Position numbers and translations under genes: made by a program
Shown here: piece by piece, positions 4,526 through 31,412 of the stretch
How the letters are laid out: the number at the start of each line of letters is the position of its first letter
Numbering within the stretch: position 1 is the stretch's first letter
NCBI RefSeq assembly: GCF_947488135.1
Contig: NZ_CANKYW010000002.1
Coordinates: forward strand, 496,001 to 560,000
Source: an uncultured Marivita sp.
Lineage (GTDB): Bacteria > Pseudomonadota > Alphaproteobacteria > Rhodobacterales > Rhodobacteraceae
Reading direction: 5' to 3'
DNA: 64,000 bases
Notes under the pieces: generated by a model
Seen by the model: only the letters and a program-made list of their open reading frames with translations
Told to the model about the DNA's origin: nothing
Database searches by the model: none

Positions 4526-4568
4526 GCGATTTTTCGAAAAAATCGCACGAGACCCTTCAAAGGGTCTC
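4526..4568. repeat. Two adjacent perfect hairpins after gabD
   Basis: Hairpin one has arms GCGATTTTT and AAAAATCGC (4526-4534, 4538-4546). Hairpin two has arms GAGACCCTT and AAGGGTCTC (4549-4557, 4560-4568). Both start within 50 bases of the gabD stop and lie just before the terminator. They may be dispersed intergenic repeats or transcript-end processing signals. Confidence 0.7.
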
Positions 4569-4583
4569 AGCCCCGCCCAAAAA

Positions 4584-4619
4584 AAGGCCCGGCAGCGTCC
4601 TGCCGGGCCTTGTTCTTTT
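4584..4619. terminator. Bidirectional intrinsic terminator between gabD and hsp20
   Basis: A perfect 12-bp stem, AAGGCCCGGCAG (4584-4595) with CTGCCGGGCCTT (4600-4611), a four-base loop, an A tract before it and a T-rich tract (TTGTTCTTTT) after it. It lies between two convergent genes and can serve both strands. Confidence 0.9.
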
Positions 4620-4671
4620 CAATCCGGGTCTCGGTCACGAAACCCAGTCGGACGTTCGAAATCCGCGCGGC

Positions 4672-5139
4672 TTAATTGACCGCTTTCGCGTCCACCACAT
4701 CCTTTTCGATCGCATCTGCCTTCGCAATTTCAATCCGGCGCGGTTTCAACGCTTCGGGGATCTCGCGCTCGAGGTCGATATGCAGCATGCCGTTCTCATG
4801 GCTCGCGCCCACGACGCGGACATGGTCGGCCAGATGGAACCGGCGCTGGAACGCGCGGGTGGCGATGCCGCGATGCAAGAAGGTGCGGTCCTCGTCCTCG
4901 TCCACCTTTTTGGCGGACACGTGAAGGGCCCCATCCTTGACCTCGACGGTCAGATCGTCATCCGAGAATCCGGCGACGGCGATCGAGATGCGATAGGCAT
5001 CATCTGCGGTTTTTTCGATGTTGTAAGGCGGGTAGGTGGGCTGGCTGACCTCGTTGGTCAGAACCCGGTCCATGAGATCGGCGATTTGGTCAAAGCCGAC
5101 GGTTGCGCGGTAAAGCGGTGCGAAATCATATCCTCGCAT
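4672..5139 (-). CDS. Small heat shock protein, Hsp20/IbpA family
   Basis: 155 residues with a central alpha-crystallin domain: PPYNIEKTADDAYRISIAVAGF at its start and the conserved GMLHIDLEREIPE strand near residue 120, followed by a KPRRIEI tail as in IbpA-type proteins. It acts as an ATP-independent holdase for unfolding proteins in the cytoplasm. A purine-rich site (GGAGGATGACCT) precedes the ATG. A heat-shock promoter would be expected upstream, but no convincing RpoH site could be made out. Convergent with gabD across the shared terminator. Confidence 0.93.
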   Translation of the reverse strand: MRGYDFAPLYRATVGFDQIADLMDRVLTNEVSQPTYPPYNIEKTADDAYRISIAVAGFSDDDLTVEVKDGALHVSAKKVDEDEDRTFLHRGIATRAFQRRFHLADHVRVVGASHENGMLHIDLEREIPEALKPRRIEIAKADAIEKDVVDAKAVN

Positions 5140-19460: not shown

Positions 19461-20882
19461 ATGACGCAAAACCATCCAGTCTACGGGCGCATTGACGGGC
19501 CGATCGTGATGATCGGATTCGGGTCGATCGGGAAGGGGACGTGGCCTCTGATCGAGCGGCATTTCGAATATGATGCGGACAAGTTCACCGTGATCGAGCC
19601 TGATGCGGGCCAGGCGAATTTTTTGCGGCAGCACAAGATCAATCACAAACAGGTCGCGCTCACGCCGGAGAATTACCGGGAGGTGCTGGGAGAGCTGTTT
19701 ACCGACGGAAAAGGGTTCTGTGTGAACCTGTCGGTGGATACCTCGTCGCTCGACCTGATGAAGTTCTGCCGCGAAATGGGCGTGCTTTATATCGACACCG
19801 TCGTGGAGCCTTGGGCGGGCTATTATTTCGACACGACCGACAACGCGGAGCGGACGAATTACGCCTTGCGACAGAAGGTTCGCGACGAGAAGGCGGCCAA
19901 TCCCGGTGGCACGACGGCGGTCAGCTGCTGTGGGGCCAATCCGGGCATGGTGTCATGGTTCGTGAAAGAGGCGTTGTTGACGCTTGCCAAGGACACGGGG
20001 AGCGACGTGGACGTGCCGCAGGACCGCTCTGGTTGGGCGAAGCTCATGCAGTCTCTGGGAGTCAAGGGTGTGCATATCGCCGAACGCGACACGCAGGCGC
20101 GGCGGACGCCTCGGCCCCGCGATGTGTTCGTGAACACATGGTCCGTCGAGGGGTTCATCGCCGAAGGGTTCCAACCGGCGGAACTGGGTTGGGGTACGCA
20201 TGAGACCTGGTTCCCAGAGAACGGCCATTCCTATGACAAAGGATGTCAGGCGGGTATTTGGCTCGAACGGCCGGGCGCGATCACGCGGGTGCACACGTGG
20301 TGCCCGACACCGGGGCCGCAATTCGGGTTTCTGGTGACCCATAACGAGGCGATCTCGATTTCGGATTACTATACCGTGGGCGATCCCGGCGCGCCGGACT
20401 ACCGACCCACCTGTCACTACGCCTATCACCCCTGCGACGATGCGGTTCTGTCGCTGCACGAGATGTTCGGGTCGGGCAAGCAGCAGACCAGGCATCATAT
20501 CCTGACCGAAGACGAGATCGTTGAAGGCATCGACGAATTGGGGGTGCTGCTATACGGGCACGAGAAAAACGCGCTCTGGTACGGATCGCGCCTGTCGAAC
20601 GAGGAAACCCGCGATCTGGCGCCCTATCAGAACGCCACTGGCCTCCAGGTCACGTCAGCGGTTCTGGCAGGCATGGTCTGGGCACTCGAAAATCCGCAAG
20701 CCGGGATTGTCGAGACCGACGAGATGGATCACGCCCGCTGCCTAGAGGTGCAACGCCCGTATCTTGGCCCCGTCGAGGCGCATTATACAGATTGGACACC
20801 GCTTCAGGACCGGTGGGAACACTTCCCCGAAGACATCGACGAAAGCGATCCCTGGCTGTTTCGGAATGTGCTGGCGAGCTGA
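19461..20882 (+). CDS. hss: Homospermidine synthase
   Basis: 473 residues. An NAD-binding Rossmann start, PIVMIGFGSIGKGTWPLIERHF, is followed by the saccharopine-dehydrogenase-like fold of bacterial homospermidine synthase, including VVEPWAGYY, GANPGMVSWFVKEALL and the long aromatic C-terminal half (GWGTHETWFPENGHSY). It makes sym-homospermidine from putrescine/spermidine, the typical long polyamine of many alphaproteobacteria. AAGGAGCG precedes the ATG. The ABC importer upstream could conceivably supply a polyamine precursor, but its binding protein is of the amino acid class. Confidence 0.93.
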   Translation: MTQNHPVYGRIDGPIVMIGFGSIGKGTWPLIERHFEYDADKFTVIEPDAGQANFLRQHKINHKQVALTPENYREVLGELFTDGKGFCVNLSVDTSSLDLMKFCREMGVLYIDTVVEPWAGYYFDTTDNAERTNYALRQKVRDEKAANPGGTTAVSCCGANPGMVSWFVKEALLTLAKDTGSDVDVPQDRSGWAKLMQSLGVKGVHIAERDTQARRTPRPRDVFVNTWSVEGFIAEGFQPAELGWGTHETWFPENGHSYDKGCQAGIWLERPGAITRVHTWCPTPGPQFGFLVTHNEAISISDYYTVGDPGAPDYRPTCHYAYHPCDDAVLSLHEMFGSGKQQTRHHILTEDEIVEGIDELGVLLYGHEKNALWYGSRLSNEETRDLAPYQNATGLQVTSAVLAGMVWALENPQAGIVETDEMDHARCLEVQRPYLGPVEAHYTDWTPLQDRWEHFPEDIDESDPWLFRNVLAS

Positions 20883-25299: not shown

Positions 25300-26232
25300 G
25301 TGGACGAGATTTCGCAACATCTTCTGCGCGACGGGGAGACTGAAATCACCGTTCTGTCGATGGGCTGTGCCATCATGGATTGGCGGGTTCGGGATCGGTC
25401 CGTCGTACTTGGATATGCCGCGCCGGAGCAGTATCGACAAAACCCGGCCTCGATGGGCGTCGTCTGCGGGCGGGTCATCAATCGCATCGCGGATGCGCGC
25501 TTTGTCCTGGATGGGGTCGACTATGCCTTGCCAGCGAATGACGGGCCGCATCACCTGCATGGGGGACCGCAAGGTCTGGGCCGCCGCAACTGGGGAATCG
25601 AACGGATCGATGATCGTGCGGTTCGGTTCACCCTAGTGTCCGAGGATGGTGACCAAGGCTATCCCGGGCGCGTTCGGTTTGTTGTGCATCTGAGCCTGAA
25701 TGCGGGATGCCTCACTTGGGAGATGGAGGCCCTGCCCGATCGCGTGACGCCGATCAATTTGGGTCAGCACCTCTATTTCAACCTGATGGGCGCGGGCACT
25801 GTGAAGGACCATGTTCTGACCATTGCGGCGGATCGCTACACCCCGACCCGTGCGGACCTCGTGCCGGAGGGGCGGATTATTCCGGTGGACGGTACGGCCT
25901 TCGACTTTCGGAAGGGTGTGCGGCTGAGCGACGGCGCGGGCTGGGACGGCAATGTCGTGTTGAACCCCGAGGCCGACATGGCGGCGGAACTGACCGCGCC
26001 AGATGGGATGCGCCTGCGTCTGTGGACGGACCGTCCGGGTGTGCAGGTCTACACGGCCAACAAGCTGACGCAGAGCTTGCCCGAAGGACGCGGAGCGGCG
26101 CATCGCCCCTGGGCCGGTATTTGCCTCGAGGCGCAGGATTTGCCGAACGCGGTGAATGAACCTTCGTTCGGGTCGATTCTGAGCTCACCGGACGCGCCGT
26201 ATCGGCAGGTGACGTCGATCGAAATCGGCTAG
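25300..26232 (+). CDS. galM: Aldose 1-epimerase
   Basis: 310 residues from a GTG at 25300 preceded by GAGGAGGGAGG. GalM features: NRIADARF, then PHHLHGGPQGLGRRNW with catalytic His, NLGQHLYFNLMG for the second His, and a C-terminal GICLEAQDLPNAVNEPSF containing the catalytic Glu. Interconverts alpha and beta anomers of hexoses. No galactose operon is near, so the sugar context is open. Confidence 0.92.
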   Translation: MDEISQHLLRDGETEITVLSMGCAIMDWRVRDRSVVLGYAAPEQYRQNPASMGVVCGRVINRIADARFVLDGVDYALPANDGPHHLHGGPQGLGRRNWGIERIDDRAVRFTLVSEDGDQGYPGRVRFVVHLSLNAGCLTWEMEALPDRVTPINLGQHLYFNLMGAGTVKDHVLTIAADRYTPTRADLVPEGRIIPVDGTAFDFRKGVRLSDGAGWDGNVVLNPEADMAAELTAPDGMRLRLWTDRPGVQVYTANKLTQSLPEGRGAAHRPWAGICLEAQDLPNAVNEPSFGSILSSPDAPYRQVTSIEIG

Positions 26233-26285: not shown

Positions 26286-26348
26286 ATGCGCCGGTTGTCA
26301 GGTTTGCGATACCTCTCCAATCGCGGCTTTCTTGGCATGCGGCGGAGT

Positions 26349-26370
26349 GCATATTTGGAAAAAGAAGAAG
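26349..26370 (+). repeat. ATATTTGGAAAAAGAAG-type intergenic motif
   Basis: A purine-rich 22-base motif beginning GCATATTTGG. It ends one base beyond the stop codon of the minus-strand copper-chaperone remnant. An identical copy is at 50514 and a near copy at 53139. Confidence 0.75.
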
Positions 26371-26371
26371 C

Positions 26372-26547
26372 TCAGTCAGCTTTGGGCAAAGTGGCCAGAT
26401 CGCTCAGGATCGGGCCGGTGTCCACATCGGCCTCGCGCAAGACGCGTTCCGAGCTTTCGAGGACCGCCTGTCCAGCAATGCGCGCTCCACCCCGCCGGTG
26501 CATCCGGCGCAGCTCAGGTTTTCGACAGCGAAGCGGAGTGTGGTCAT
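26372..26547 (-). pseudogene. Copper chaperone (heavy-metal-associated domain), deleted and frameshifted
   Basis: From ATG 26545-26547 the frame reads MTTLRFAVENLSCAGCTGGV, the beta strand and CxxC metal site of a CopZ-type domain, then turns into a Ser/Arg-rich tail ending at 26404. In the next frame the sequence instead continues AVLESSERVLREADVDTG and PILSDLATLPKAD up to a stop at 26372-26374, which looks like the proper C-terminus. The distance is 176 bases, not a multiple of three, and too short for a 65-75 residue domain, so about 20-30 codons of the core are missing. Whether the 47-residue product (MTTL to the stop at 26404) has any use is unknown. Confidence 0.75.
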
Positions 26548-26573
26548 GGGTGTGATCCTTCTGTCATGAGGAT

Positions 26574-26604
26574 CAGATAGGGTTTCCAGTGACTGGAAGG
26601 TCAA
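26574..26604 (-). promoter_or_regulatory. CueR/HmrR-type copper-responsive promoter
   Basis: On the minus strand a -35 TTGACC (26599-26604) and a -10 TATCTG (26574-26579) are separated by 19 bases, the over-long spacer typical of MerR-family promoters. The spacer holds the dyad TTCCAGT/ACTGGAA (26584-26598), close to known CueR operators. It lies 27 bases before the copper-chaperone remnant start. The regulator gene is not in the window. Confidence 0.8.
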
Positions 26605-26643
26605 GGGCCTGCTGGGTGATTTTCGATCAGGAGGTGACCGAAC

Positions 26644-27093
26644 TTAGTGTAGATTGGGCGGGGGCGGCGACAGGACCCGCAACCGGCACTCTTCGCACAG
26701 CAGCGGCAGACCGAAGCGGGATGCGGCGCAGAGCAGGGGCAGGATTGCTGATCCTGACACAAGAAAGGTGGCCTGTGCCAAGGCAAGGTCCCGTTCCTGT
26801 TCGGTCGCGGCCATCACGAAGCGGGCAAGATCGGCTTCGTCCGCCGACGCTTGGGCGTGATCAGCGGGGTGGATCGACAGCGGTTTCCAGCCATGTTTGC
26901 GCAGCAACATCAGCATATGTTCGAACGCCTGAAGGCAGGACCGCGCCCGACCCGTACTCATGGAGCGGCAGAGCGACGTCCAGACCTCGGCCTGGGCCGC
27001 CTCGCCGTTCTGCCATGCCCGCAGCATCGTCACGACTCGCTGTTCAGGCGCGCGCAAGGATTTGAGAGGGACTGAAATCTGCGAGTGCAGCAT
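26644..27093 (-). CDS. Uncharacterised helical protein
   Basis: 149 residues, no signal peptide, mostly helical (LRAWQNGEAAQAEVWTSLCR ... ACLQAFEHMLMLLRKHGW), with a second half rich in Leu and Cys (PLLCAASRFGLPLLCEECRL) that could bind metal. The C-terminus is proline-rich. Codon use is normal for the genome, supporting a real gene. No family recognised. The copper promoter remnant lies just downstream. Confidence 0.6.
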   Translation of the reverse strand: MLHSQISVPLKSLRAPEQRVVTMLRAWQNGEAAQAEVWTSLCRSMSTGRARSCLQAFEHMLMLLRKHGWKPLSIHPADHAQASADEADLARFVMAATEQERDLALAQATFLVSGSAILPLLCAASRFGLPLLCEECRLRVLSPPPPNLH

Positions 27094-27282
27094 GGGTTTG
27101 GTCCGGTTGGTGCATTTAAGGTAACCGCATACGCAATTTATCCGACAAAAACAATCGGAAATATATTGAAATGAATCGCGCGTGGGACCGTCGGTCGGAT
27201 ACCTGCCTGACGAAGGATCTCATCCGACCGTAAAATTGTCATCGTTCTTGAGTTTATCTGGGGCCGTGAAGCGGAGGTAGTG

Positions 27283-27696
27283 ATGAGAGCAAGATGCGTA
27301 AGTCTATGGGCTTTGAGCCTTATTTTCTCGGTAGGGCCCTCGGGCGCAGAAATCGATATACCTGAGGTCTACTCGGCTGCGTCTGCGCAAGCGCTTACGC
27401 AATGTGTTCGCCGCGCCTCAAGTGCTGAAAGCGTGCTTGTTTGTGCCACCCCCTACTTGTTTCGGTGCCTCGAAATTCTGGACGGATCGCTCTTTGAAGA
27501 TTGCCGACGAACCGCGTTGTTTTGGTGGAACGATCGCGTTGAAGAAGCGCGGGAACTTGACCCCGTTGCAGTAAAGCAATTGGAACTGAAAGTTGAGCGG
27601 ATGCCTTGTAGTGATTTCACTCTCTTGGGTGATTATGCGTGTCAGGAGCGAAAGTACGGCGTGATTTACACGACGGTCATGGCTGGACGTCATTAG
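27283..27696 (+). CDS. Small exported cysteine-rich protein, unknown
   Basis: 137 residues from ATG 27283, five bases after GGAGG; the GTG three bases earlier is too close to that site. A signal peptide ends near GPSGA (about residue 22). The mature part has six Cys (CVRR, VCAT, RCLE, DCRR, PCSD, ACQE), suggesting three disulfides. It lies in the lower-G+C stretch. I do not recognise the family. Confidence 0.6.
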   Translation: MRARCVSLWALSLIFSVGPSGAEIDIPEVYSAASAQALTQCVRRASSAESVLVCATPYLFRCLEILDGSLFEDCRRTALFWWNDRVEEARELDPVAVKQLELKVERMPCSDFTLLGDYACQERKYGVIYTTVMAGRH

Positions 27697-28022
27697 AGGT
27701 CCGACAGTTTCACCGTGTCCCTGTTCAAAACCGCTACAACGAACCGCACCGTGGTTATGGGCGTGAACCTTTTGCCAAACGAAAACATAGAGCTGCCAGT
27801 GATGGGAAGGCTGGGATTTGGCAATGCAGTAGGTCGGAATAAGTGCTGCTCTTTAACCAAGCGGTGCCTATTCCCGTTTGATAGCAGCATTCGTTTGGAG
27901 CGGTGCTCATGAGAGCAAGTTCGATGCAATGACGCGATGATCGGTGATTTCACCTGCGAACGTCAAAATGTGGCCCAATTGCTCATGTTCACTTCAGCGC
28001 GGAATTTCTGGATGTTGTTGCT
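27697..28022. other. 326-base AT-richer gap holding only a decayed copper locus copy
   Basis: No convincing gene in any frame. G+C falls well below the surroundings. The part at 27715-27815 is a degraded copy of the copper promoter and gene start (next entry). The rest shows no structure that I can name. Confidence 0.6.
27715..27815 (-). pseudogene. Relic of a second copper-responsive promoter and chaperone start
   Basis: Read on the minus strand it aligns over about 95 bases with 26515-26605. The former -35/operator region reads CCTTCCCATCACTGG versus CCTTCCAGTCACTGG, the -10 is TATGTT versus TATCTG, and the leader AAAGGTTCACGCCCATAACC matches AAGGATCACACCCATGACC. The start codon is ATA (27756-27758). 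The next codons read TTVRFVVAVLN against TTLRFAVENLS, then similarity stops before the CxxC site. A dead duplicate. Confidence 0.65.
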
Positions 28023-28685
28023 ATGTCGGACTTGGTGGCAGTGTTTGTAGACGGGGATAATGTGCCTTCGTCATTTGCTGGCAGGATCGTTCGAATTGCC
28101 AGAAGCCTCGGGCGCTTATCCGTTGCAAAGGTCTATGGAAACAAACAGACGATTGAGTGCTGGCGCGATGCCTTTTCGTTCCAGTTGGTCTACTCCGGTG
28201 ACGGGAAAAATGCGACGGATGTTCTGATCGCCGTGGAGGCAACCGATCATGTCCTGACCAATCCCGTCCAATCAGTCGTCATGTGCAGTTCGGATGCCGA
28301 TTTCTCCCACTTGGCCAGGTATATCCGGTCCAAGGGTATCAACGTTGTCGGGATGGGAGAGGACAAGACCAAGGCGCAGATGCGCCACGCCTGTTCGGAG
28401 TTTCAGCTTTTGGGAAATGAGCCATCGGAGACTCCGAAGTCGAGCCGTGCATCCGACCTTGATCCAAACGTCATCGCGATGATCAGAAAGCACCAAGTGG
28501 AAAGTAACAGCAGCGCGATGCCGATGTCTACTTTGGGCTCCAAAATGTACCAAGTCCATAAAGTGAAGATCAGCGACACATCACACAAGACATGGCGCGC
28601 ATACTTGGAATGCCGTCCAGACGTTTACAGGCTGAAACAGATCGGTTCAAAAATGACTGTATCGCTAAGGCAAAGCCCGAATTAG
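28023..28685 (+). CDS. NYN-domain ribonuclease-like protein with LOTUS-like C-terminus
   Basis: 220 residues. Residues 1-130 form a PIN-like NYN domain (LabA/DUF88 type) with the acidic set Asp10/Asp12 (FVDGDNV), Asp66 ([13 protein letters not shown]) and Asp91/Asp93 ([18 protein letters not shown]). Residues 148-216 look like an OST-HTH/LOTUS winged helix (IAMIRKHQ ... [13 protein letters not shown] ... [11 protein letters not shown]), an RNA-binding module often fused to NYN. Predicted metal-dependent RNase. G+C is lower than neighbours. No clear ribosome site. Its end overlaps rlmN by four bases, tail to tail. Confidence 0.82.
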
Positions 28686-29869
28686 TTGGTCCTCGTTTCC
28701 GCCGCGATCTGTGCCTTGCTCTTGCGGGCGCGTTCGGTGGCTGACTTCAACTGCCCGCAGGCCGCCATGATGTCCTCGCCGCGCGGGGTGCGGATGGGGC
28801 TGGCATAGCCCGCCTTGTAGATGATGTCGGCGAAGGATTCGATGCGGCTCCAGTCCGAGCGTTCGTAGGGCGCGCCGGGCCATTCATTGAAGGGGATCAG
28901 GTTGATTTTGGCGGGGATGCCCTGGATCAGCTTGACCAGACGGCGCGCGTCTTCGTCGCTGTCGTTCACGTCCTTGAGCATCACATATTCGAAGGTGATG
29001 CGTTCGGAGTTCGACTTTTTCGGATACTCGCGCAGCGCGTCGAGCAGGGTTTCGATGTTCCAGCGCTTGTTGATTGGGACAAGCTTGTCGCGCACCTCAT
29101 CCGTGGTGGCGTGGAAGCTGACGGCCAGAAGGCAGCCGATCTCCTCGGCCGTCTTGGCGATCTCGGGCACGACACCGGATGTGGACAGCGTGATCCGTCG
29201 GCGCGAGAGGGCGATGCCTTCGCCGTCCATCGCGATCTTCATCGCGTCGCGGACGTTGTCGAAATTGTAGAGCGGTTCGCCCATGCCCATGAGCACGATG
29301 TTCGACAGAAGGCGCGGACCGTTTTCGCCGGTGCCGACACCGGGTTCGGGCCATTCACCCAGATCATCGCGCGCCAGCATGACCTGTCCGATGATTTCCC
29401 CGGCGGTCAGGTTGCGCACCAGCTTTTGTGTGCCGGTGTGACAGAAGGAACAGGTGAGCGTGCATCCGACCTGGGACGAAATGCAAAGCGTGCCGCGGTC
29501 GGTTTCGGGGATATATACAACCTCGACCTCGTGCCCGCCCGCGATGCGGACAAGGTACTTGCGGGTTCCATCGGCCGAGACGTTCTTGGAGACCATCTCG
29601 GGAACGGCGATGTCGAACGCGTCGTCCAGTTGCGCGCGGTATCCCTTGGCGAGGTTCGTCATCGCGTGGAAATCCCGCACGCCCCATTGGTAGACCCATT
29701 GCCAGATCTGGTTCACCCGCATCTTCGCTTGCTTTTCGGGCGTGCCCATCGCGATCAGCGCATCCCGCAGGGCCGGACGGGTCAGGCCGACGATGTTCGT
29801 CTTGTCGCCTTCGGGCGTCTTGCGCGGGATGGTCAGAACGTCTTGCGTGATCGGTGCAGAGCCGGTCAT
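28682..29869 (-). CDS. rlmN: Dual-specificity 23S rRNA/tRNA adenine-C2 methyltransferase
   Basis: 395 residues from ATG 29867-29869 ([10 protein letters not shown]); an ATG 11 codons upstream is the alternative. Radical SAM motif CTLTCSFC lies in the middle, with the [12 protein letters not shown] segment and the C-terminal [13 protein letters not shown] supplying the methyl-carrying cysteine. It methylates A2503 of 23S rRNA and A37 of some tRNAs. Full length and intact. Confidence 0.95.
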
Positions 29870-30060
29870 TGGGTCAGCCTTTCTCGAAAAGAGATGAGGC
29901 ACATATAGGATTCTTTGCGCTTTGCCAAAGGGGAAACGGCAAAGATGGCGTGCTTGCAGATTTCATGGCTCCGGGGGATTTACCTAGGGTAAACTTGCGC
30001 GCCGTGTCATGATTGCCCTCTGGATCCCATTATGGGTTCTTTTAACCGGGGGGAATTAAA

Positions 30061-30368: not shown

Positions 30369-31412
30369 TCAGAGCATTGTCCAGCCTTGGTAGGCTAGGC
30401 CGATCAGGAACGCGCCGCCAAGCGAGATGGCGATGTAGAGCGTGAACACGCGCGGTTTGACCAGTGCCCACACCGCGATCGCGGCGGGGAGCGATGTGAC
30501 ACCGCCCGCGACAAGAAAGGCGAGACCAGCGCCGGATGCCATGCCTTGCTCCATCAAACCGCTGATCAGGGGCAGGGCTGCATAGCCGTTGAGATATGCC
30601 GGGACGCCGACGACCGTTGCAATGGCGATCGGGCCGATTCCGGTGCCGCCAAGAACGGATGTGATGGTCTCCGCCGGGATATAGGCGAGCATCAAGCTTT
30701 CCAGCAGGAAGGCCAGCGTGAGCCATTGCGCGAGGAACAGTGTGGTTTTCCACGCCTCTTTCCCGAACTTCTCGACACGATCGGAATGCTGCCAAAAGCG
30801 CCAGACCACCGGTTTGGGGTTGCGGATCCGGGCCGATCCGCAGCCGCCATTGCCCACGCCTTCGCGCAACGCGTCGTGCAGGATGTGGCTGCCTCCAAGC
30901 GCGAGGACGATGAGCCCGCCCGCCATGCCAAGGCCGACCGCGGCAAGCGTTTTCGCGATGGCAAACTCGAATCCGAGAACGCCTGATGTCAGCAGGAACA
31001 TCGACGGATCCATGATCGGGGACGCCAGCCAGAAGGCCATCACGGCAGACAAGGGCACGCCCATCGTCAGCAATGCCGCGATCAAGGGGATGACGCCGCA
31101 GGAACAGAAGGGCGACAGGCCGCCGGCCAAAGCGGCGAGGAAAATCATCAGAACCGGCGACCCGGTGAAGGCGCGGGCGATCAGATTGTCCGCACCCGTC
31201 GCCCCTGCCCAGGCCGCGACACCGATGGACAAGAGCAGAAAAGGCCCGGTGTTGAGCAAGGATTGCGCGACAAAACCCGCGCTTTCCCCGGCCTGCGATG
31301 GCGCGATAAGTGCGATCAGAAGCAGGATCACGCCAGAGGCGATCCAGACCTTCTGTTTTTTGACCGAAACCCAGATCGGGTTCGGGGGAGTCGTGGAAGA
31401 AAGATCGGCCAT
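30369..31412 (-). CDS. YraQ/UPF0718-type permease
   Basis: 347 residues with eight to ten membrane segments and a central cytoplasmic loop around residues 185-215. The first half carries GGLSPFCSCGVIPLIAALL, the conserved Ser-Cys motif of the DUF318/YraQ permease family. Such permeases are often linked to metal, arsenic or thiol stress. An ArsR-type gene lies 15 bases upstream in the same direction, so they form one transcript. Substrate not established. Confidence 0.85.
   Translation of the reverse strand: MADLSSTTPPNPIWVSVKKQKVWIASGVILLLIALIAPSQAGESAGFVAQSLLNTGPFLLLSIGVAAWAGATGADNLIARAFTGSPVLMIFLAALAGGLSPFCSCGVIPLIAALLTMGVPLSAVMAFWLASPIMDPSMFLLTSGVLGFEFAIAKTLAAVGLGMAGGLIVLALGGSHILHDALREGVGNGGCGSARIRNPKPVVWRFWQHSDRVEKFGKEAWKTTLFLAQWLTLAFLLESLMLAYIPAETITSVLGGTGIGPIAIATVVGVPAYLNGYAALPLISGLMEQGMASGAGLAFLVAGGVTSLPAAIAVWALVKPRVFTLYIAISLGGAFLIGLAYQGWTML

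Follow-up and report, generated by a model that had tools for sequence, protein, structure and literature searches.

The window analysed here, a 64-kb stretch of contig C2 of an uncultured Marivita sp. (genome G000), carries the remains of a copper-export locus beside rlmN. This anchor gene lies on the minus strand (28682-29902) and is followed by the plus-strand gene for an NYN-domain protein (28023-28685). Further along come a minus-strand stub (27734-27814) and, convergent with it, an open reading frame for 137 amino acids on the plus strand (27283-27696) with a signal-peptide-like start as judged by eye. Back on the minus strand, they are succeeded by orfA, an open frame of 149 residues (26644-27093), and by pieces of a copA-cueR operon: an intact CueR-type copA promoter and leader (26545-26606), the first 25 codons of the native copA (26472-26547), a possible inner copA fragment (26408-26473) and the end of cueR (26348-26415). 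The other flank is formed by a plus-strand aldose 1-epimerase gene (25300-26232). The gene order and flanks are those of the native rlmN-copA-cueR-epimerase locus of the genus: rlmN, orfA and the epimerase gene hold their place and strand, with the operon pieces in order between them.

In all 16 congeners examined, an intact copA is present at the rlmN locus. It is followed by cueR in 15 of them; cueR was not seen in G011 and is cut by the fragment end in G007. The epimerase gene flanks the locus in 13 of the 16 (not seen in G011, G008 and G012). Twelve have orfA between rlmN and copA, directly upstream of the latter, and G003 yields a partial match, while orfA is absent from the locus in G006, G015, G012 and the other-genus genome G036. 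Neither Pfam nor NCBIfam provides a name for orfA. It also adjoins copA or cueR in loci of Salipiger, Alloyangia, Allosediminivita and Puniceibacterium. Possibly, orfA is an unnamed copper-linked gene that has been kept here although copA is gone. The NYN gene occurs between rlmN and the copper genes in three of the 16 congeners (G007, G008 and G012), and in G012 copA comes straight after it. Its identity to the NYN genes at the same place in these three is 44-50%, compared with 94-96% for rlmN, and a search across the family gave a match in 254 of 394 genomes. By eye, rlmN and the copper genes are separated in G007 and G015 by a sensor-kinase-like frame that runs on the opposite strand (L052 4400-5365 and L050 3405-4370), and on this reading the space behind rlmN accommodates genes of various kinds. 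The 137-residue frame has a G+C content of 0.524, no name in Pfam or NCBIfam, and a match in only one of 121 genomes, which is the window's own. The initial annotation had taken the two copies, with three hypothetical or unusual genes around them, to point to a duplicated locus. The neighbouring genes are not products of a duplication: other members of the genus have orfA and NYN at this site too, and the 137-residue frame has no counterpart outside its own genome among those searched.

The first copy of the copper genes, copA1, begins with a promoter that has all elements common to the congener copies, i.e., the -35 sequence TTGACC, the dyad CCTTCCAGT-ACTGGAA and a -10 like TATCTGAT. Here, the -35 is TTGACC, the operator reads CCTTCCAGTCACTGGAAAC and the -10 is TATCTGAT, and the leader ends in an ATG at 26547-26545. 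In a promoter matrix built from 16 rows, the lowest member of which scores 48.1, copA1 reaches 56.3 of a maximum of 59.0. Congener alignment and operon profile agree that the native reading frame, with the start of the first HMA domain and its SCAGC motif, continues for 25 codons and is then cut off. The start codon and the CxxC-bearing HMA domain expected of CopA are thus present over these codons only, and the Pfam HMA match remains below its cut-off (17.3 versus 24.8 bits). Read on from the ATG, the remaining frame encodes 47 residues, which include SCAGC but no ATPase. We considered a gene for a small copper chaperone (copZ) at 26547 and ruled it out, since the congeners have copA there.

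The extent of the loss was assessed with a profile of the whole operon (2965 positions, 13 of the 16 congeners, with G007, G008 and G011 left out). Three pieces of the window lie above its inclusion threshold: 26606-26472, corresponding to model positions 2-135, 26415-26348, corresponding to 2868-2936 (E 0.0039), and the upstream stub, 27810-27734, corresponding to 8-84 (E 0.00063). The second of these covers the last codons of cueR, the stop region and the 3' flank; the encoded PILSDLAT is identical to eight residues near the end of many congener CueR proteins. The ATPase body was not found in the window by this profile, and a CopA query from contig C8 of the same genome, which finds all 16 congener copies, did not detect it on contig C2. 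What there is of it is the weak inner piece 26408-26473 (AGQAVLESSERVLREADVDTGP). This piece matched copA in tblastn (E 1.9e-5 with G014, 6.4e-5 with G002) and scored 22 at the DNA level against G012, where 300 shuffles gave 17 at most. On the other hand, it was missed by the operon profile, and its DNA scores against G014 (17, shuffle maximum 19) and G002 (10, shuffle maximum 16) stay within the shuffled range. We tentatively regard it as an inner copA fragment. Accordingly, all that remains of copA-cueR here is the promoter, 25 copA codons and the end of cueR, with perhaps a short inner piece between them. As read from its letters, the first copy is dead, a copA stub joined to a cueR tail. 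Because its promoter is still perfect, the loss looks recent, which suggests a recent deletion. Of the copA-cueR export operon, which consists of a P1B-type ATPase gene and the gene for the MerR-family activator CueR, the window pieces match the promoter, the first HMA domain and the cueR tail. The ATPase body is missing, as is almost the whole of cueR, and all that the second copy offers is a decayed promoter and start.

This second copy lies 1.2 kb upstream of the first. Local alignment of the minus strands of 26300-26700 and 27600-27900 (match 1, mismatch -1) returned one block, 26600-26525 against 27810-27736, with a score of 32. None of 2000 dinucleotide shuffles reached this value (mean 10.2, maximum 19), and when a 110-base core of the first copy was compared with 300-base tiles on both strands, the next-best place after the two copies scored 17. 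BLASTN of 27600-27900 (one strand, seeds of 7) against fragments from the 16 congeners and one from G036 gave nothing at E 1, and we therefore used a profile of copA 5' ends. It consists of 17 ends from the 16 congeners; the window rows were included in the alignment and dropped before the profile was built. Over the 64 kb its best match is 26605-26483 (E 6.5e-32) and its second-best 27810-27733 (E 3e-6), followed by a third match at E 0.75. When both rows from G008 are omitted, the E value of the upstream stub is 1.6e-5, and that of the third match 0.42. The minus strand of 27810-27734 is thus a homologue of 26605-26525, where promoter, leader and first codons lie, and the two are identical at 54 of 78 columns. 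With none of the shuffles attaining the observed score and a wide gap in the profile between the stub and the next match, a chance resemblance to a copA start is ruled out for practical purposes, and we consider it extremely improbable. The initial annotation had stated that the copper promoter and gene start occur here a second time, as a dead copy, and had proposed an alignment with a shuffled control as a check; both the shuffles and the profile bear this out.

Alignment, profiles and promoter matrix together describe the stub as a decayed CueR-type promoter with leader and about seven copA codons. Where ATG is expected, it has ATA (27758-27756). The -35 TTGACC is replaced by CCAGCC, the -10 is TATGTT, and the operator reads CCTTCCCATCACTGGCAGC compared with CCTTCCAGTCACTGGAAAC in the first copy, so that an operator core and a -10 persist next to the lost start and -35, just as the initial annotation had noted. 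Compared with the elements common to the congener promoters, the -35 is lost and the dyad broken; compared with CopA, both the start codon and an HMA domain with CxxC are lacking. The stub scores 6.2 in the promoter matrix, still the second-best value among all positions on both strands, and a stub in G008, dealt with further below, 36.3. Of 33 columns that do not change in 15 congeners (G008 left out), seven are altered in the upstream stub, two in the G008 stub and none in copA1. The surroundings are poorer in G+C, as had also been observed before, with 0.51-0.53 in three 500-base tiles covering 27000-28499 versus 0.614 for the whole window.

Could this site nevertheless function as a CueR promoter, with orfA or an RNA antisense to the neighbouring open reading frame as its transcript? 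It is located upstream of orfA on the same strand and retains the operator half CCTTCC and the ACTGG core. The loss of the -35, the distance of 6.2 from the values for copA1 and even the G008 stub, and the changes in seven of the 33 invariant columns make this very unlikely. A somewhat better case, albeit still an improbable one, can be made for a stub derived from another HMA gene with a similar promoter, e.g., that for a CopZ chaperone, given that about seven codons cannot separate an HMA chaperone from the first HMA domain of CopA. However, the leader and the TTxRF start match the native copA pattern, and the small HMA gene on contig C8 begins differently as judged by eye. We conclude that 27734-27814 on the minus strand is very probably what is left of the 5' end of a second copA, a non-functional stub of the CueR-controlled gene for a copper-export ATPase. 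Most likely, judged by the state of its promoter and start, the stub has no function now.

In bacteria, deletion and displacement leave gene remnants behind, known as pseudogenes. A pseudogene is recognized by disabling changes in a sequence that is homologous to an intact gene, and the upstream stub shows both. The window resembles known cases in that genes are truncated, a start codon is lost, conserved sites are mutated and an intact homologue exists elsewhere. It differs from them in that a single locus holds two stubs of the same gene that are not of the same age. The upstream stub is an ordinary gene remnant, older than the neighbouring copA-cueR scar. The earlier notion of a duplicated copper locus that has been eroding is correct as far as erosion is concerned; the first copy, however, is not alive either. 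Nor did a comparison of synteny bring to light a genome with both copies intact: there is none among the 16 congeners, within about 5.2 kb behind rlmN, and none among 80 named rlmN loci, several of which are shortened by contig ends. Nine of these 80 have copA, orfA or NYN near rlmN; seven have copA, one of them probably being G005 again. Three further relatives, G018, G026 and G032, have neither the copA start nor orfA or NYN near rlmN as far as matches were obtained. In Puniceibacterium antarcticum (L119 8528-8972), orfA is followed by a copper-type promoter directly before cueR and there is no copA match, so that copA seems to have been lost independently in this case.

Two origins of the upstream stub have to be weighed. 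In a tandem duplication within the lineage of the window, the copA promoter and start would have been copied 1.2 kb upstream and would then have decayed, with no incoming DNA involved. This has a real, though slightly less than even, chance of being correct. The closest sequence to the stub is indeed copA1 with its 54 of 78 identical columns, and the two share six sites against the congener majority. Yet the 17 congener rows range from 37 to 52 identities, G014 being nearly as close (52), and G015 also shares six such sites and G006 five. In a tree of 124 columns, a clade of the stub and copA1 was neither found nor rejected (p-AU 0.411), and the same holds true for rejection of a pairing with the G008 stub (p-AU 0.387). 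Furthermore, no additional duplicated sequence is joined to the block within the 401 and 301 bases compared.

Alternatively, the resident copA was displaced: a foreign orfA-copA block would have come to lie next to it, and of the old gene the 5' end would have stayed behind between NYN and orfA. This scenario draws on G008, which shows the same arrangement, a copA 5' stub (L049, about 4560-4730) between NYN and orfA, upstream of copA. The layout in the window is likewise NYN, stub, orfA and copA, with the 137-residue frame between stub and orfA. In contrast to the upstream stub, that of G008 retains the ATG, a -35-like TTGTCC and the CxxC motif and continues into a 59-residue open reading frame, and, unlike in the window, copA-cueR behind it is intact. 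The G008 stub groups with copA of G006 (97/91), while in a mosaic test the full G008 copA was about equally distant from the congeners along its length, with no segment standing out as close to G006 or G015, and the G008 orfA groups with that of G011 (0.997). In a tree of rpoB, gyrB and rlmN, in which G001, G009 and G036 have only 15-31% of the columns, G006 and G015, both without orfA, fall into one clade with G000, G008, G011 and G014 (86/99, not starred); a genus tree from rlmN and the window genes at 30369-31412 and 19461-20882 was weakly supported. G012, where copA directly follows NYN, and G036 also lack orfA. In G008, an incoming block may have displaced the resident copA, of which the stub would be the remnant. 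Several observations point the other way. Within the same clade, G011 and G014 do have orfA. In the cueR tree, G008 clusters with G015 and G006 (0.693 and 0.877), and the full G008 copA is placed with G036, a long branch, beside the G006-G015 pair (0.993 and 0.979), so that a foreign source of the G008 copA-cueR is not shown. The stub in the window itself has no resolved affinity in the tree and shares 46 of 78 columns with the G008 stub. As the copA and cueR trees are partly at odds with a foreign source in G008, displacement and duplication are put on a par, and displacement, too, falls a little short of an even chance.

Stubs of copA beside rlmN thus occur in two of the 17 genomes of the genus. 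A more far-reaching proposal states that the gap behind rlmN is a site of recurrent replacement, where orfA-copA blocks leave resident stubs behind, and that in addition the recent scar still makes a copper-induced CxxC peptide of 47 residues. Taken as a whole, this combination appears rather unlikely.

Although copA-cueR is reduced to a scar at this locus, the genome has copper-export genes elsewhere. Contig C8 of G000 carries a full copA, cueR and a small HMA gene, with matches to the models for copper ATPases and CueR. A further CueR-like operator is present on the same contig (L008 1500-1530, 90% identical over 30 bases). Other matches to the C8 CopA in G000 are P-type ATPases on contig C1, with 31-34% identity in longer pieces and 50% in one short piece. 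The C8 region of 7651 bases shows an 83% match over 100% of the query to plasmids of Phaeobacter, Marinibacterium and Sagittula, and in 28 records a single place accounts for 80% or more of the query. By these matches, the C8 copA-cueR is a plasmid-type cassette. A copA of this type was also found in G012 (97%), G008 (88%), G009 (87 and 91% in two pieces) and G002 (70%), all of which retain the native copA as well. The cassette alone hence does not force the loss of the native gene; it may permit it. The titles and opening parts of abstracts on CueR or copA pseudogenes in Rhodobacter and on Marivita and copper do not mention the locus.

A probable course of events would be that the C8 cassette made the chromosomal copper locus dispensable, that the upstream stub was the first to decay and that copA-cueR went later by internal deletion. 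For annotation, the case illustrates that a perfect CueR promoter followed by an HMA start, as at 26606-26472, can be a mere scar that is easily mistaken for the gene of a copper chaperone. The locus also shows in legible form how a chromosomal operon for metal resistance dies in two steps where the genome possesses a plasmid-type cassette of the same function.
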